Source of the DNA: Bacillota bacterium
GTDB taxonomy: Bacteria > Bacillota > Clostridia > Clostridiales > Clostridiaceae
Assembly (NCBI GenBank): GCA_021781655.1
Contig: JAJXWJ010000011.1
Location: 1-64,000, forward strand
Length of the DNA stretch: 64,000 nt
Direction of reading: 5' to 3'
The position numbers were made by a program, and so were the translations under genes. The notes beneath the pieces were generated by a model. That model did no database searches and was not told the origin of the DNA. It saw nothing but the letters and a program-made list of their open reading frames with translations. Shown here in pieces: positions 5,895-35,692 of the stretch (position 1 is the first letter of the stretch; every line of letters starts with the position of its first letter).

Positions 5895-7070
5895 TTAATG
5901 ATGGAATAATCTTAATTTTGAATGTGCCATTACAATGCCATATTCATCACAAGCTTCAGTTACTATATCATCTCTGACAGAACCGCCTGGTTGAACAATA
6001 TATTTAACACCACTTTGTGCTGCCCTATCTATATTATCTCTAAATGGGAAAAAGGCATCGGAACCTAAGGATACTCCATTTAACTTAGAAATCCATTCAC
6101 TTTTTTCTTCAGCTGTCAACCTTTTTGGTATTTTTTCAAAAATATTTTCCCACTGCTTAAGTTCCATTTCAGTTACATCATCTCTAAGAAACTGGTCTAT
6201 TGCATTGTCCATATTAGCTCTTGCAACACCTTCCTTAAATTGCAAGCCTAGTACAACCGGATGTTGCCTCAAATACCATATATCCGCCTTTGAAGCTGCA
6301 AGTCTAGTACAGTGAATTCTCGATTGCTGACCTGCACCAACACCGATTGCTTGACCATCATAAGCAAAACAAACAGAATTGGATTGAGTATACTTAAGGG
6401 TAATCATTGAAAGTATTAAATCACGCTTAGAAGCTTCATCTATATCCTTATTTTTCGTTACTATATTTTCTAATAACTTTCTATCAATTTTAACATTATT
6501 TCTTCCTTGTTCAAAGGTAATTCCAAAAATTTCTCTTCTTTCAATTTCTTCTGGCTCGTAATTTGGATCCATTTGAATTATTAAATAACTTCCTTTCTTC
6601 TTTTGCATTAGCAATTCAAGTGCTTCTTTTGTATACCCAGGTGCTATTATTCCATCTGAAACAGATTTACTTAAAATCTTTGCTGTAGGTAAATCTACAA
6701 TATCGCTTATTGCAGCAAAATCTCCAAAGGATGACATCCTGTCTGCACCTCTTGCTCTCGCATATGCGTTTGCAACTGGTGATAACTCTATATCTTCAAC
6801 AAAACATGCTTTCTTGAGATTATCGTTAAGTGGAAGTCCTACAGCTACACCTGCTGGACTAACATGCTTAAAGGATGCAGCAGCAGGCAAATTAGTTGTA
6901 AGCTTTAATTCCTTTACAAGCTGCCAAGAATTAAAAGCATCCATGTAATTGATATACCCTGCTCTACCATTTAGCAGTTTAAAAGGCAAAGCACCTTTTT
7001 TAATATAAATTTTTGCTGGACTTTGATGTGGATTGCAGCCATATTTTAGCTGGATTTCTGAGTTTTCCAT
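5895..7070 (-). CDS. purH: Stand-alone AICAR transformylase (PurH C-terminal domain only)
   Basis: A 391-aa enzyme matching only the AICAR formyltransferase part of bifunctional PurH. It converts AICAR (ZMP) plus 10-formyl-THF to FAICAR, the penultimate step of IMP synthesis. Visible landmarks are the domain entry KYGCNPHQ (family RYGENPHQ), the catalytic Lys-His in SFKHVSPAG, the [12 protein letters not shown] strand, SDAFFPFRD, the PGGSVRD turn and the C-terminal RLFHH. The roughly 200-residue IMP cyclohydrolase domain is absent, and the start is a normal ATG with GGAGG, so this is a natural single-function protein and not a truncation. IMP cyclohydrolase must be encoded elsewhere. The gene lies directly behind a ZTP riboswitch, which fits its substrate. 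Confidence 0.9.
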
Positions 7071-7094: not shown

Positions 7095-7190
7095 CAAAAA
7101 AACCTGGATAAATAGACTTTTACCCAGGCGGTCGATATTAAACTTTAAATTATGCTCCCTATGGTTAATTCCATTTCCGCCAGTTACATA
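7095..7190 (-). promoter_or_regulatory. ZTP (pfl) riboswitch with overlapping terminator
   Basis: On the minus strand the leader contains the two conserved halves of the ZTP aptamer: AACTGGCGGAA with CCATAGGGAGC (about 7158-7187), then GACCGCCTGGG (about 7124-7134). The CCTGG of the second half can alternatively pair with CCAGG at 7103-7107 to form a terminator hairpin followed by seven T residues. ZTP/ZMP accumulates when 10-formyl-THF is short, so ligand binding would block the terminator and switch on the AICAR transformylase gene just downstream. Promoter and aptamer lie in the gap before the DUF3267 gene. Confidence 0.93.
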
Positions 7191-7260
7191 ACTTTTTTTA
7201 TTCTTTTCACTAGTAGTTTATCATATAATAATATGGGCTTCAAGTAAAAAATTTGTATGT

Positions 7261-7842
7261 TTATGACTGCTCTTCTTTAATAGCTTTAGCCATATACAAA
7301 GTGCAACCACATTCTTTTTCATCATCTATTACCAATGTTTTGCCTTTTTCTCTTATACATAAAAGTATTATAATAACATCTCCACCAGCACCTAAAATCA
7401 TCAGTAAACTTAAAAGCATTAAAATAAAATTTCCAAAATGCAAAGCTATTATATACGGAATAATGCCTGTAAAAATTAATGGCATCATAGTTCCTATTCT
7501 ATACTGAGAAAGAGTTATAGCCTCTTTACAGTGACAATAAATGGTGAGATATTCTGTTAATATGCCAAACTTTATACTCTTCCATTTTTCTATACAAAAA
7601 AAATGAAAAACAAAACCATGAATAAACTCATGAGAAATTGCTAAAAGGATTGCTCCTAAAATAAAAATTATACAATCTGACATAGATAAGTAAAATATTG
7701 TTTTCCAGTTATAGGCATATAATATAAATAAAATAATAACAGCTGGTCCCATAATTACAAATGAAAATACATTTGCTTTTCCCATTGAAACCGTTTTTTT
7801 GATTTGGGTAAAATTATCAATGTTATTTTGATTTAATATCAT
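7261..7842 (-). CDS. DUF3267 family membrane protein, putative zinc metalloprotease
   Basis: A 193-aa membrane protein with four or five hydrophobic segments. The HExxH-type motif HEFIHG lies at the end of the second segment (about residues 71-76 of the frame), as in DUF3267 proteins, which are thought to be site-2-protease-like zincins. The open frame begins four codons earlier at a TTG, but GAGGTG sits just upstream of the ATG used here. Substrate and role are unknown. Its stop lies about 70 nt upstream of the riboswitch region, so the downstream AICAR transformylase gene is separately regulated. Confidence 0.7.
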   Translation of the reverse strand: MILNQNNIDNFTQIKKTVSMGKANVFSFVIMGPAVIILFILYAYNWKTIFYLSMSDCIIFILGAILLAISHEFIHGFVFHFFCIEKWKSIKFGILTEYLTIYCHCKEAITLSQYRIGTMMPLIFTGIIPYIIALHFGNFILMLLSLLMILGAGGDVIIILLCIREKGKTLVIDDEKECGCTLYMAKAIKEEQS

Positions 7843-8055
7843 GTTGCACCTCAAAGTATTTTTCTAGTTGTTACATAAAATTATCGCATTTATGTATATT
7901 ATATTCCACTTTACTTAATTTTGTAAAGTTTATTTTAAATTTGAAATATTGTATATGTAAACGAATGAAAAATTACTATCACACTTGTTTTGATTTTAAT
8001 TTCCGTAAATTTATAAAAAAATTATTGTATATTTATTTCGTAACTGAACATAATA

Positions 8056-8553
8056 ACTATTGTAAGGGACATAACGGTTGAGCGAAGATTTATATAGGCT
8101 CCTAGCAGGGTTTATATAGGTCGACCAAAGACTGTATTGTGATTATTTATTTAGTTGTAATTCAATCGGAGGAAGATTAAATAAAGTGGGGAAAAGTTTT
8201 ATTTCGGTTGAGTGAAATCTATCGCTATGAGATTCCAACTTATTTTATTTAGTTGAGTTAAGATCATTCAGGGTGTTGATTGGATTTAATCCTTTGATCT
8301 TATATAGCCTTTCGGTTATATAAGGTTGATAAAATATTCTGCATGGTCGAGCAAACCATTAATATAGGTTGCCACTTGCTTTATTAATGTCGAAAGATAT
8401 TAATGAGGTGATAAACTATCTATATTAGTGCAAGTAAGATCGTTATATTCTTTAAATGCTGAAGCTTAATAAAGTTTTGGCACAAAAGAGGAAATAATTT
8501 AATGTAGTATGCAAAAATGCTAACTATAATTAAATTATTTCCTTATTTTTTTG
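8056..8553 (+). ncRNA. Candidate large structured non-coding RNA upstream of the agr-like genes
   Basis: The 904-nt gap between 7855 and 8758 has no credible coding frame. Within it, about 500 nt is less AT-rich and dense in stems on the plus strand. Examples are GGTTGA (8077) with TCGACC (8122); AATCT (8216) with AGATT (8231) extended by GGTTG with CCAAC; a 10-bp hairpin TTATATAGCC-TTTC-GGTTATATAA (about 8301-8324); TTAATGTC-GAAA-GATATTAA (about 8386-8405) with a GNRA tetraloop; and ACTTGC with GCAAGT enclosing that hairpin. The region ends in a strong terminator at 8491-8553. The direct repeat TTTATATAGG occurs at 8091 and 8112. The family is not recognised; it could be a divergent member of a known large RNA class such as ROOL or GOLLD. 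The 5' end is a guess based on a CATAAT hexamer at 8050. The remaining flanks are AT-rich and show nothing else clear. Confidence 0.6.
8491..8553 (+). terminator. Rho-independent terminator of the candidate large RNA
   Basis: A perfect 13-bp stem (GGAAATAATTTAA at 8491-8503, TTAAATTATTTCC at 8531-8543) is capped by a further TAGT/ACTA and GCA/TGC stem. TTATTTTTTT follows on the plus strand. The opposite strand lacks a comparable T run, which fixes the orientation. Confidence 0.88.
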
Positions 8554-8645: not shown

Positions 8646-8674
8646 ATGACAAATTGTGTACGTAGTAGTACAAT
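8646..8674 (+). promoter_or_regulatory. Possible promoter of the agr-like operon with an overlapping imperfect palindrome
   Basis: ATGACA and TACAAT hexamers are separated by 17 nt, about 85 nt before the first gene of the cassette. The spacer and the -10 element contain the imperfect palindrome TTGTGTAC-GTA-GTAGTACAA, which could be an operator. There is no match to the staphylococcal AgrA box. This is a weak call in AT-rich DNA. Confidence 0.35.
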
Positions 8675-8758: not shown

Positions 8759-9253
8759 ATGTTGAAATTACAGTTCATTCAAATTTTTCTTTTAGGATTT
8801 CCAGAAACTTTTCTTTGTTTTTGGGCTATTAATTATATAAATAATAATAAAATACAACTTAAAGTATTGTTTATAACTAGCTTTATAATAGATGTAATTA
8901 TATATTTCGTAAGATTGTTACCAATTTTATATGGAGCTCATACAATTATATCAATCGTGTTATTTATAATTTTTACATATAAGATTACTAATATATCTCT
9001 GGTAAGAACTATATCATCTTGCTTAATAATTATGATTCTAATGTCATTTTGTGAATTTTTCCCTATCTTTATAGTCGAATTTTTTAACTTTAATTTACAA
9101 AATGTATTCTCAAATCCTTTATTTGAAGTTATATTATTTTTTCCTTCACTTGTAATATTTGTTTTATTCATAATTTTATATAATCATCTTAATATTAAAT
9201 ATTTATTGAAAGGTAATGATTTAATTGTCACTAATAGAGAAAGCCTCAAATAA
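8759..9253 (+). CDS. Membrane protein of the agr-like cassette
   Basis: A 164-aa, almost entirely hydrophobic protein with about five predicted transmembrane segments and a short polar tail. The opening FIQIFLLGFPETFL and the later VRLLPILYGAHTI resemble the membrane sensor halves of clostridial AgrC-like/GHKL kinases and small proteins often placed just before agrB. No kinase domain follows; the frame stops after the last helix. It could be a peptide sensor or partner for the kinase two genes downstream, or an accessory factor for AgrB. The upstream ribosome binding site is weak. The stop overlaps the start of agrB by 29 nt, so the two are translationally coupled. Confidence 0.6.
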   Translation: MLKLQFIQIFLLGFPETFLCFWAINYINNNKIQLKVLFITSFIIDVIIYFVRLLPILYGAHTIISIVLFIIFTYKITNISLVRTISSCLIIMILMSFCEFFPIFIVEFFNFNLQNVFSNPLFEVILFFPSLVIFVLFIILYNHLNIKYLLKGNDLIVTNRESLK

Positions 9254-9869
9254 GATTGGTTGCACGTTAGCCGTGAATTTAAATTTAGATGAAGACAATA
9301 AAGAAGTATTAATTTACGGAGCTTTTTGCCTTTTACAAACTATTTTATGTTTATCATCAATAATAATCTTCGGTTATATTTTTAATGTTTTATTAGAGTC
9401 TTTGCTTGTAGCTATTTCTGCCAGTACCTTAAGAAAATATTCTGGTGGAGTACATTCAGCGTCTCCAAACAGATGCTTAATTATCAGTATATTAATAAGC
9501 GTAGGCTTTAGTTTAATTATAATATCTACTACAAAATATTTAACTTCATCTTTTTGTATTCTACTGGTTTTTATAGGAATAGTTTATAGCTATTATTTTT
9601 TATACAAATATGCTCCTGTGGATAGTGCTGCAAAGCCAATAAATAATATCAATAAACGTAAAGAATTAAAATTTAAATCTTTAATATGCTTAAGTATAAT
9701 GACTATTTTAATAATTCTACTTATATTAGCTTATATTTTTAAATTAAACATAAACATATTAATATATTGCGAATGCATTGCTGTTGGGGTGACTTGGCAA
9801 AGCTTTACATTAACAAATTTAGGACATAATTTTTTAACTAAAATAGATAATATTTTTATTAAAAATTAA
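9225..9869 (+). CDS. agrB: AgrB-like autoinducer-processing membrane peptidase
   Basis: A 214-aa AgrB family cysteine peptidase with the catalytic pair His77 (KYSGGVHSAS) and Cys84 (PNRC), the same positions as in Staphylococcus aureus AgrB. Several hydrophobic segments follow, with the conserved YAPVDSAAKPI motif between them. It cleaves the C-terminal tail of the AgrD precursor and forms the thiolactone ring at the membrane. The start is a TTG about 10 nt after AAAGGT; an ATG just upstream (9216) is followed at once by a stop. It overlaps the preceding gene, and the precursor gene follows after 12 nt. Confidence 0.93.
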   Translation: MSLIEKASNKIGCTLAVNLNLDEDNKEVLIYGAFCLLQTILCLSSIIIFGYIFNVLLESLLVAISASTLRKYSGGVHSASPNRCLIISILISVGFSLIIISTTKYLTSSFCILLVFIGIVYSYYFLYKYAPVDSAAKPINNINKRKELKFKSLICLSIMTILIILLILAYIFKLNINILIYCECIAVGVTWQSFTLTNLGHNFLTKIDNIFIKN

Positions 9870-9881
9870 GGAGGAGTACAT

Positions 9882-10007
9882 ATGAAAAAGAAGTTATTTG
9901 CTTTATCTGCAAGTATACTAACATTATTTGCTTTGTTTACTTCCGTTTCTGCTTGCTTTTATGTTTTATATCAACCAAAAGAACCAAAATGCTTAAATGA
10001 AAAATAA
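9882..10007 (+). CDS. agrD: AgrD-like cyclic autoinducer peptide precursor
   Basis: A 41-codon gene with a strong AAGGAGGAG site right after agrB. The product has a lysine-rich start, an amphipathic/hydrophobic leader (about 5-22) and a C-terminal part reading SACFYVLYQPKEPKCLNEK. By analogy with clostridial AgrD peptides, where the ring is Cys plus four residues ahead of a conserved QPxxP segment, the predicted thiolactone is C25-F-Y-V-L29, with YQPKEP and the acidic tail removed by AgrB. The second Cys at position 37, in the tail, is unusual. The exact N-terminal cut cannot be read from the sequence. Confidence 0.92.
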   Translation: MKKKLFALSASILTLFALFTSVSACFYVLYQPKEPKCLNEK

Positions 10008-10012
10008 TTTTT

Positions 10013-10034
10013 AAGGACCGTTTATTCGGTCCTT
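10013..10034 (+). other. Perfect hairpin between agrD and the histidine kinase gene
   Basis: AAGGACCG and CGGTCCTT form an 8-bp perfect stem with a 6-nt loop, starting 6 nt after the agrD stop. No T run follows on the plus strand. It is better seen as a partial attenuator, an RNA-stability or processing element that would lower kinase expression relative to agrD, than as a full terminator. Confidence 0.5.
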
Positions 10035-10071
10035 AAATCCGTAAATTATAATCAGATAGGTGGAAAAAACA

Positions 10072-11919
10072 GTGAATGAATTTGAAAAAAATAATTTAAC
10101 AAAAATTAACGATATTATATATACTGTAAAGCTAGCCTCATTATTATTTTCTTTATTGTTAATTTACAATCACTTTAGTTTTAATTATAAATTGGATATT
10201 AATAATTTTGGTACTAAATTCTTTTTTAATCAAGTTTCATTAATTTCACTTTGTATGATGTTAATATATTTGCTTTGGTTATTTACAACAAAAATCTTTG
10301 AAAAATTTTATTTTAATAAAATTATTATACATTTTGAAAATTATTTTTTTATATGCTTTTTTACTATTTTAATATGTATTTCCGGCACTGATACTTATCA
10401 ATACAAGTTATTATATATGTTTGTCATAATAACATCTACTTTGCAATGTGGAAAAAAACATGGTATTTTAGTTGCTTCCATATCTTCTATAGTAGTTTTA
10501 GTAATGGATTTATTCCTATTTCAAAAACAAAACATAAATATACATTTCGAAAACGATCTTATATTATGTGGAATATTTATTTTAATTGCATGGCCTCTAG
10601 GCCATTATGTTGAAATTGAGGAAGAAAGAATTAAGTATAAGACTGTTCAAGTAAACAAACTAAATTATAAATTAAAAAGTCAAAATGAAAAAAATCGAGA
10701 AATTGAAAGACAGTTATTAAAAAATGAATTTTGCTCTAGATTAATTTTTGAAAATTCAAAGGATGTTATTTTAATTCACGATTTAAAAAAAGTTAAATTC
10801 GCAAATAAAAATGCAGAAGAGCTTTTAGGCTTCAATTTTGAAGAGTTCGGCTCTATGTCTATATTTGATATATTAAGCAATAACTTAGGCTTCGTAAATA
10901 AAAACTTTGAGGATGAACTAAAGGGATTAAAAAACAATATTAAATTTGAAGCTAAACTTAACAATAAGTTTGGCAAAAAAATTGTTGCAGAAGTAATTTC
11001 TAATTATTTTTTGTTTGAAGGTAATCCGTCAATATTAAGTATTATTCATGATATTTCCTCTGAGAAACAAGTAGAAAAATTGAAAAAAGATGTTGAAAAA
11101 AATGTTGAACTTTTGCAGGAAACTCAAGAATTTGCTGATTCGATAATCGAATCCTTTGCAAACATTTCTCACGAATTAAAAACACCTTTAAACGTTATTT
11201 TTTCTACAGTTCAATTATTAGACTTGCACAAAAAAAATGTATCAAAAATTGAGGATAAATTCGAAGATTACTTAACATTAATTAAGCAAAACTGCTATAG
11301 ATTAATGAGACTTATTAATAACTTTTTAGATATTACAAAAATAGATTCTGGATTTTTAAAATTAAATGTTGTAAAATGTGACATCGTTAAGGTAGTTGAA
11401 GACATTACTCTATCTGTTGCACCATACCTTGAAGGCAATAACCTTAATTTAATATTTGACACAAATACAGAAGAAAAGATAATGTGTTTTGACCCTGATA
11501 AAATTGAAAGAATTATGCTAAATTTACTTTCTAATTCGGTTAAATATTCAAAAGGCTCTGGTGAGGTTTTTGTAAATTTAACCGATAATGATGATTCAAT
11601 TACAATTTCTGTTAAGGATACAGGTCTTGGTATTCCAAAAGAAAAGCATAGGTTAATTTTTGAAAAACTAGGACAAGTAGATAAAACCTTAAAAAGAATT
11701 AGTGAAGGTAGTGGAATCGGGCTTACTTTAGTAAAATCCTTTGTTGAGATGCACAATGGCTCTATTATACTTAAAAGTGAGCAAGGCAAAGGCAGCGAAT
11801 TTGAAATTACAATTCCTACAACCTTGAGTGCTCAAAATATAGATGAAGATATAAAAATATTTACTACTAATGAAGAGAAAATTAGCATTGAATTTTCAGA
11901 TATATATATTAAAAACTAG
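10072..11919 (+). CDS. Membrane PAS sensor histidine kinase of the agr-like cassette
   Basis: A 615-aa kinase. It has about six N-terminal transmembrane segments (30-190), a short coiled coil, a PAS domain (about 225-335), HisKA with the phospho-acceptor His367 in SHELKTP, and a HATPase with an N-box (NLLSNSVKYS), G1 (DTGLGIP) and G2 (GSGIGLTL). This is an orthodox HisKA kinase, not the AgrC/HPK10 type usually paired with AgrB/AgrD. No response regulator gene is adjacent, so it is an orphan kinase; such kinases feed the Spo0A phosphorelay in several clostridia, but that target is inference here. An earlier GTG at 10060 is in frame, yet AGGTGG lies 8 nt before the GTG chosen. It may sense the cyclic peptide. 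Confidence 0.88.
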   Translation: MNEFEKNNLTKINDIIYTVKLASLLFSLLLIYNHFSFNYKLDINNFGTKFFFNQVSLISLCMMLIYLLWLFTTKIFEKFYFNKIIIHFENYFFICFFTILICISGTDTYQYKLLYMFVIITSTLQCGKKHGILVASISSIVVLVMDLFLFQKQNINIHFENDLILCGIFILIAWPLGHYVEIEEERIKYKTVQVNKLNYKLKSQNEKNREIERQLLKNEFCSRLIFENSKDVILIHDLKKVKFANKNAEELLGFNFEEFGSMSIFDILSNNLGFVNKNFEDELKGLKNNIKFEAKLNNKFGKKIVAEVISNYFLFEGNPSILSIIHDISSEKQVEKLKKDVEKNVELLQETQEFADSIIESFANISHELKTPLNVIFSTVQLLDLHKKNVSKIEDKFEDYLTLIKQNCYRLMRLINNFLDITKIDSGFLKLNVVKCDIVKVVEDITLSVAPYLEGNNLNLIFDTNTEEKIMCFDPDKIERIMLNLLSNSVKYSKGSGEVFVNLTDNDDSITISVKDTGLGIPKEKHRLIFEKLGQVDKTLKRISEGSGIGLTLVKSFVEMHNGSIILKSEQGKGSEFEITIPTTLSAQNIDEDIKIFTTNEEKISIEFSDIYIKN

Positions 11920-35070: not shown

Positions 35071-35088
35071 AACTTCATCCTCCAAAAT

Positions 35089-35692
35089 TAGCAAAAGTGG
35101 CAATACACCAAGTAAATCTTGCGGCATAGGTCCAGTAGGGTTTCCCATAAAACAACCAAAGTGTCACCATTTTGGCAGTTTCCCTTTAATGTTTTATCTA
35201 ATTTGTTACCAAAATTAGGACTAGACTACCACTAAGTCCGCACTGCAATCCCTAATGTATTTCATTTTGAACAGTCTAGGAGTTTTCCTCAACAGTTAAG
35301 CTTTTCTTTAGCCTCTTTTGCAGCATAGGTTTCAGAAGACTTTTGGTAAAAGTATTTTGGCCTATTAACTTTTACTTTTCTTACCTCTCCCTATCCCACT
35401 CAAGGCAGGCTACACTGCACATAGCTTTTGTACCACAATACAGGTTTAATCCATTGCCGTAAAAAAGGTATCTAATCTTAATCACGCACAATGGTCTCCA
35501 CGAGGGTAGGGTCAGTTGCGCATGCCATTGCGGCTGCCCCATCCCCCTTACTCCCAGCACAAACCCAAAACTGGGCGTTATAGGCAAGCACAAGGAACTT
35601 CATCGATATGCCCTTTAACGGATTTTTAGCCCCGCCCTCAAAAAAAGCTGCTCTGACTAGAAATACTGCACCACTTTTTGCTATTATAACAA
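35089..35692 (-). ncRNA. ole: OLE RNA (ornate, large, extremophilic)
   Basis: A ~600-nt gene-free segment between ispA and oapA, clearly richer in G+C than its surroundings and full of stems on the minus strand. The ends pair: TAGCAAAAAGTGG at 35684-35672 with CCACTTTTGCTA at 35100-35089 (12 bp, one bulged A), closing the whole RNA. Size, closing stem, the ispA-OLE-oapA-dxs order and the OapA neighbour are those described for OLE RNAs. OLE with OapA forms a membrane ribonucleoprotein linked to ethanol, cold and metal-ion stress tolerance in B. halodurans. It has its own promoter. The exact 5' end is inferred from that promoter. Two small ORFs read through it are artefacts. Confidence 0.92.

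Follow-up and report, generated by a model that had tools for sequence, protein, structure and literature searches.

The 64,000-nt stretch of clostridial DNA analysed here (the window) carries a gene for a large structured RNA that almost certainly belongs to a new class; from CsfG and Bvs196/S357 it is set apart by the published descriptions of these two. The assignment follows from the lack of a meaningful Rfam match, the many homologues and the strong covariation of paired positions. The novelty lies in the RNA class and its architecture, there being precedents for large structured RNAs of unknown function. On balance we think it fairly likely that this free-standing gene would give rise, in the forespore, to a trans-acting non-coding RNA of the new class; its likeliest role would be that of a structural or scaffold RNA in the spore.

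The preliminary description of this DNA had placed a large structured RNA of unknown class at positions 8056–8553, within a gene-free region of about 900 nt whose base composition differs from that of the AT-rich flanks. All of this was borne out. The plus strand of 8056–8553 folds with −158.3 kcal/mol compared with −102.4 ± 6.0 for shuffled sequences (z = −9.3; 0/100 shuffles as good), no credible gene lies between 7855 and 8758 (the longest ORF has 46 aa), and GC content is 0.30–0.325 within the RNA region vs ~0.20–0.24 in the flanks, with a strong skew of G over C. The extent has to be revised: the RNA is indeed present there, but its conserved core, which matches positions 2–405 of the 406 in the alignment profile, is 8065–8454 (+), ~390 nt, and the remaining 8455–8553 form a non-conserved 3′ tail with a terminator. 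The match to the profile itself extends over 8066–8453. The genome from which the window comes has one copy of the RNA. The locus is arranged as follows:

7261–7854 (−), zincin-like DUF3267 gene, bounding the gene-free region on one side
8027–8031 (+), −35 element GTATA of the sigma-G/sigma-F type, a perfect match to GHATR
8049–8055 (+), −10 element CATAATA (sigma-G consensus CATWHTA), N17 from the −35 element and 9 nt before the core
8489–8553 (+), A+T-rich 14–15-bp stem-loop and T-tract, probable terminator (inverted repeat 8489–8543; fold; TTATTTTTTT)
8646–8674, sigma-A-like promoter candidate that could serve the agr operon separately
9225–9869 (+), AgrB gene of the agr-like operon
9882–10007 (+), gene for a 41-aa AgrD-like peptide
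10060–11919 (+), PAS/HisKA histidine kinase gene of the agr-like operon

When the region and nine homologous loci were compared with Rfam 15, no family reached its gathering score and only chance matches appeared at E ≤ 10; the families covered include OLE, raiA, ROOL, GOLLD, ARRPOF, HEARO, 6S and group I/II introns. Literature searches, with subscription papers mostly outside their coverage, returned no description of this RNA; a prior report beyond that coverage, or kinship with csfG, could exist. A coding function was considered and rejected: the longest ORF within the core in the window has 19 codons, homologues have a median of 53 codons over ~400 nt, and indels are many. No conserved reading frame was seen on inspection of the homologue alignments. 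In the entire window, Rfam 15 finds two RNAs only. One is a full-length OLE RNA at 35081–35690 (−), scoring 505 bits and already noticed in the preliminary description, which brings the number of large structured RNAs in the window to two. The other is a ZTP (pfl) riboswitch at 7115–7197 (−), which lies immediately upstream of a gene with AICARFT/IMPCHase domains (5895–7070 (−)), its classical context.

When 58 related genomes were searched with the region by BLASTN, several families proved to have strong matches of nearly full length, with two copies 4–7 kb apart in some genomes. Covariation was analysed in 57 non-redundant full-length members (mean identity 65%), using APC-corrected G statistics against alignments simulated on the tree and an RNAalifold consensus. 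The fold is a six-way junction with arms P1–P6, each of which has covariation support. At E<0.05, 38 column pairs are significant; 34 of them fall within the 132 consensus pairs and are spread across all arms. Of the four others, three resemble further standard pairs, and the fourth (8084–8124) joins two junction strands. Independently, among 24 diverse members 96.5% of pair cells are standard and 92/131 pairs have changed on both sides; when the structure is slid by 1–3 columns on these 24 members, only 26–37 pairs show double changes and 38–42% are paired. Thus, the secondary structure of the RNA is proven by covariation. Its parts in the window are:

8065–8079 (+), 5′ strand of P1, 15 bp with 8438–8452; double changes in 9/15 pairs
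8080–8086 (+), junction strand J1/2, GAGCGAA in GTT-GAGCGAA-GAT; motif GTYGAGCNAAGAT in 56/57 homologues
8087–8122 (+), arm P2, a hairpin; double changes in 13/16 pairs
8123–8129 (+), junction strand J2/3, GTC-GACCAAA-GAC; motif GTYGAGCNAAGAT in 54/57; the pair 8084–8124 covaries with J1/2
8130–8167 (+), arm P3, a hairpin; double changes in 12/14 pairs
8168–8174 (+), junction strand J3/4, ATC-GGAGGAA-GAT in the window, consensus GTC-GGAGGGAA-GAT
8175–8254 (+), arm P4 with internal loop GGT..GAAA/CCAACTTATC; double changes in 20/27 pairs
8255–8261 (+), junction strand J4/5, GTT-GAGTTAA-GAT; motif GTYGAGCNAAGAT in 57/57
8262–8348 (+), arm P5, tip loop 8310–8313; double changes in 19/29 pairs
8349–8356 (+), junction strand J5/6, GTC-GAGCAAAC-CAT; per-position conservation 77–100%
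8357–8430 (+), arm P6, tip loop 8392–8395; double changes in 19/28 pairs; covered by covariance model R1
8431–8437 (+), junction strand J6/1, GTG-CAAGTAA-GAT; per-position conservation 81–100%
8438–8452 (+), 3′ strand of P1, partner of 8065–8079

Two long-range pairings put forward in the preliminary description, GGTTGA with TCGACC and ACTTGC with GCAAGT, are not the conserved ones and find no support in the consensus. The first two strings lie in joining strands, and GGTT is part of P1, with its covarying partner at 8438–8452. The GNRA- and UUUC-type loops noted there are real: the P6 tip is GAAA in the window (8392–8395) and GNRA in 54/57 homologues, and the P5 tip is TTTC in the window and GNRA in 48/57. 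Conserved G·U pairs are unusually numerous: G·U is the commonest pair at 31/131 positions, 16 of which are G·U in at least 20/24 members, and U·G recurs as the third pair from the junction in several arms. The GGAGG of J3/4 in the window resembles a Shine-Dalgarno sequence; this reading was discarded, since homologues have GGCGGG and other sequences at the same place.

The joining strands include three near-identical repeats of GTYGAGCNAAGAT, the third, fifth and sixth strands being variants of it. Scored at ≥9/12 positions, the motif occurs in joining strands 1, 2 and 4 in 54–57 of the 57 members, against 0.35 chance matches per sequence. The bases of the arms are likewise alike, each beginning with pairs of the G-Y, A-U, U·G type. 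P4 and P6, related in sequence and structure, are duplicates of one another, since in many members P4 is also detected by the covariance model built on P6 (e.g. 2.5e-8), including the window, where the match spans 8164–8278. The unpaired letters that are conserved belong to the junction strands and internal loops rather than to open hairpin tips, which are GNRA or variable. This arrangement bears on how the RNA might act. Base-pairing sRNAs normally present a conserved single-stranded seed. An antisense sRNA comparable to Bvs196, with which the RNA has the type of promoter and a stable fold in common, seems unlikely to us: the placement of the conserved unpaired letters does not suit a regulator with an exposed seed, and the structure is conserved to a greater degree than an antisense regulator needs. 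We regard a ribozyme or otherwise catalytic RNA as distinctly improbable on what the sequence offers. Compact, tertiary-folded RNAs typically have such a size, a multi-way junction, near-invariant joining strands and GNRA loops, and catalysis has long been suspected for OLE; against this, the RNA shows no recognisable catalytic core or cleavage site of a known type, and it matches none of the ribozymes in Rfam. A scaffold-type action, rather than antisense pairing or catalysis, is what we tentatively prefer, with a little less than even confidence. In favour of a hub with several like sites are the position of the conserved letters in the junction and internal loops, the GNRA or variable tips, and the repetition of arm bases and joining strands.

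The sequence just upstream of the core, overlooked in the preliminary description, carries a forespore-type promoter. In B. subtilis the sigma-G consensus is GHATR-N17/18-CATWHTA and that of sigma-F is GYWTA-N15-GGNNANANTW. The window promoter, GTATA-N17-CATAATA, agrees with the former at 12/12 positions. Across 81 non-redundant loci, 59% score ≥11/12 against the B. subtilis sigma-G consensus, compared with 4.8% of dinucleotide shuffles and with 1–3% of control segments, which were the 60 nt lying further upstream, 60 nt downstream, and the reverse strand; 21% reach 12/12, compared with 0.2% of shuffles. Sigma-F sites are enriched upstream of the RNA at these loci too. No enrichment was found there for sigma-A or sigma-H sites, sigma-A being at shuffle level. 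Forespore-type promoters precede nearly all copies and end 7–11 nt upstream of the core (14 nt in some Caloramator-type copies), with weak −35 elements in some homologues; loci fetched after the promoter had been noticed are mostly in agreement. Under the same scoring, the four SASP promoters of the same genome include one clear look-alike (GAATA-N17-AATACTA), the others being weak or ambiguous. The promoter sequence, together with co-occurrence with spore genes, suggests that the RNA is very probably transcribed in the forespore. Both sigma factors may recognise one and the same site, which would fit the overlap of sigma-F and sigma-G documented in C. difficile (PMC7438776).

The strong terminator described earlier corresponds to the long stem and T-tract at ~8489–8553. 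Its sequence is not conserved among homologues, and owing to its A+T-rich stem it was missed by a generic terminator scan. At the 3′ ends of homologues, a T-run follows straight after P1 in 27/57, and a separate hairpin with a T-run occurs within 110 nt in 31/57. No neighbouring gene family recurs at more than 4 of 57 non-redundant loci, and the orientation of the downstream gene is random (27 opposite vs 26 on the same strand). A conserved downstream gene on the same strand, as expected of a cis-acting leader or riboswitch, was not found at the homologous loci. Since neighbours are not conserved, orientations are random, a T-run or terminator follows P1 and the window copy has its own terminator, the RNA gene is an independent unit.

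These contexts also bear on the link to the agr-like cassette hinted at earlier. In S. aureus, RNAIII lies beside agr, and here the RNA shares its strand with the AgrB/AgrD cassette and precedes it by 200–300 nt, so a cis-acting leader (riboswitch or attenuator) of this operon or an RNAIII-like partner could be imagined. We consider such a role extremely improbable, and the contexts of homologues largely refute it: AgrB-type genes were not seen at other loci, linkage to agr of the kind expected for an RNAIII analogue is not conserved among homologous loci, and in 27/53 cases the downstream gene is read from the opposite strand. In the window, moreover, the RNA has its own terminator and the agr operon its own promoter candidate (8646–8674). 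Because neighbouring genes are not conserved, the agr cassette beside the RNA is incidental at this locus. The cassette (8759–11919 (+)) also includes a 164-aa protein with no Pfam match, and its kinase is of the PAS/HisKA type instead of the usual AgrC type.

The distribution of the RNA was estimated with R1, a covariance model of the 3′ arm P6 only, which divergent or truncated members may escape, so the figures are lower bounds. R1 matches occur in at least 45/398 sampled genomes of the window's phylum (~11%; 38/267 genera) and in at least 11/349 sampled genomes of the class Bacilli (~3%). A degenerate pattern applied to one genome per species yielded 58 loci, and R1 confirmed all 58. In all, homologues are known from dozens of genera of Clostridia and Bacilli. 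On the Clostridia side, carriers belong to Clostridium, Caloramator, Thermobrachium, Desulfosporosinus, Desulforamulus, Tepidibacter, Natronincola, Anaerovirgula, Petroclostridium and Caldicoprobacter; Bacilli carriers are Ectobacillus, Peribacillus and a Paenibacillus-labelled strain. Genomes have 1–2 copies, three being the maximum seen. The patchy distribution and the several genomes with two nearby copies might recall a mobile-element or phage RNA like ROOL or GOLLD. This origin is very improbable in our view: the pattern found no match in IMG/VR viral contigs, phage records and plasmids likewise gave none, no transposase, integrase or tRNA recurs as a neighbour, and copy numbers are low.

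The RNA and spore genes tend to occur together. SASP genes are present in all RNA-bearing genomes of the phylum sample (45/45; 345/398 genomes are SASP-positive overall) and in 13/13 Bacilli-side carriers, and the RNA is found in 0/53 SASP-free genomes of the phylum sample. Taken alone, this co-occurrence has p ~ 0.001, uncorrected for phylogeny. Genes adjoining the RNA encode SpoIIP twice and a spore germination permease twice. Both the co-occurrence and the spore-gene neighbours are supporting evidence, not decisive because phylogeny is uncontrolled. The absence of the RNA from most spore formers rules it out as a universal part of the spore. In Peribacillus cavernae a SASP gene precedes the RNA by ~210 nt and has the same orientation (locus L081, G454:C31:40254–41059 (−)).

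We know of few non-coding RNAs of late sporulation, and of none with a fold this elaborate. CsfG was reportedly presented by Marchais et al. in 2011 as a forespore sRNA of endospore formers. It is forespore-restricted and under sigma-F and sigma-G (PMC9147052). The RNA described here has the type of promoter in common with CsfG; they differ in that CsfG is described as a small RNA and that no Rfam family matches our RNA, a comparison made by description only. Bvs196, of 294 nt, is controlled by sigma-F/sigma-G, and its loss alters spore resistance (PMC9147052). Like our RNA, Bvs196/S357 of Bacillus has its own gene, preceded by a forespore promoter and followed by a terminator, and its fold is conserved (PMC9147052). 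However, it is described from one conserved place between hinT and ecsA in Bacillus genomes, whereas the present RNA, ~390 nt long, occurs in Clostridia and Bacilli at no fixed locus. The hinT/ecsA neighbourhood was not seen at the Bacilli loci examined (L067, L099, L102, L114).

Among other large RNAs, OLE (RF01071) is similar as a large ornate non-coding RNA with a complex conserved fold, found mainly in anaerobic Bacillota; it differs in length (~600 nt) and has no covariance-model similarity to our RNA. OLE forms a dimer, and OapA mediates its association with the membrane (PMC12286853). The raiA motif, or ModT, is a further widespread structured RNA of Bacillota, but its Rfam family has no match here, and size and fold differ. 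ModT reportedly affects C. difficile growth and virulence (PMC11706538). ROOL and GOLLD are large, elaborately folded RNAs that form multi-copy RNA assemblies (PMC12286853). They are largely linked to phages or prophages, unlike the RNA described here, which was not found in phages or plasmids and has no sequence or model match to them.

For the spore scaffold that we favour, the following course can be proposed. Transcription would start at ~8062–8065 from the sigma-G (probably also sigma-F) promoter and stop at ~8553. The RNA would be made solely in the forespore and may be carried into the dormant spore. As a compact hub docking its arms, it would bind a protein in several copies, or further copies of the RNA, and in this way influence spore maturation, dormancy or outgrowth. 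No protein partner of the RNA was found in this analysis. A more specific and rather doubtful version is that this forespore RNA, with its pseudo-sixfold repetition of joining strands and arm bases that would have arisen in part from arm duplication (P4/P6), would form a hub and assemble, by itself or together with a repeated or ring-shaped protein, into a particle built into the spore. Large structured RNAs are uncommon in bacteria, and a field has grown out of each. In the present case the promoter indicates one particular cell and stage, the forespore, which makes the function directly testable by deletion in a tractable spore former.

Several members of the family deserve separate mention. 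The copies paired at 4–7 kb (L038, L046, L047 and L049, in Clostridium drakei, Caloramator and Thermobrachium type genomes) each have their own promoter, and a TwoAYGGAY RNA motif (L038:5253–5397 (+)) is located ~2 kb upstream of one RNA copy. A contig labelled 'Calditrichales bacterium MX18-03' (L115, JAJGRE010000001.1) bears a typical member; either the name is wrong or the RNA was transferred, probably. A divergent subfamily (L170–L176, in genomes f27, f42, f46, f50, f80 and f139) scores only 55–65 bits with R1; several of its members begin with a GGGTTCRTAAYRGCCGAG-like sequence, and they mostly have forespore-type promoters.
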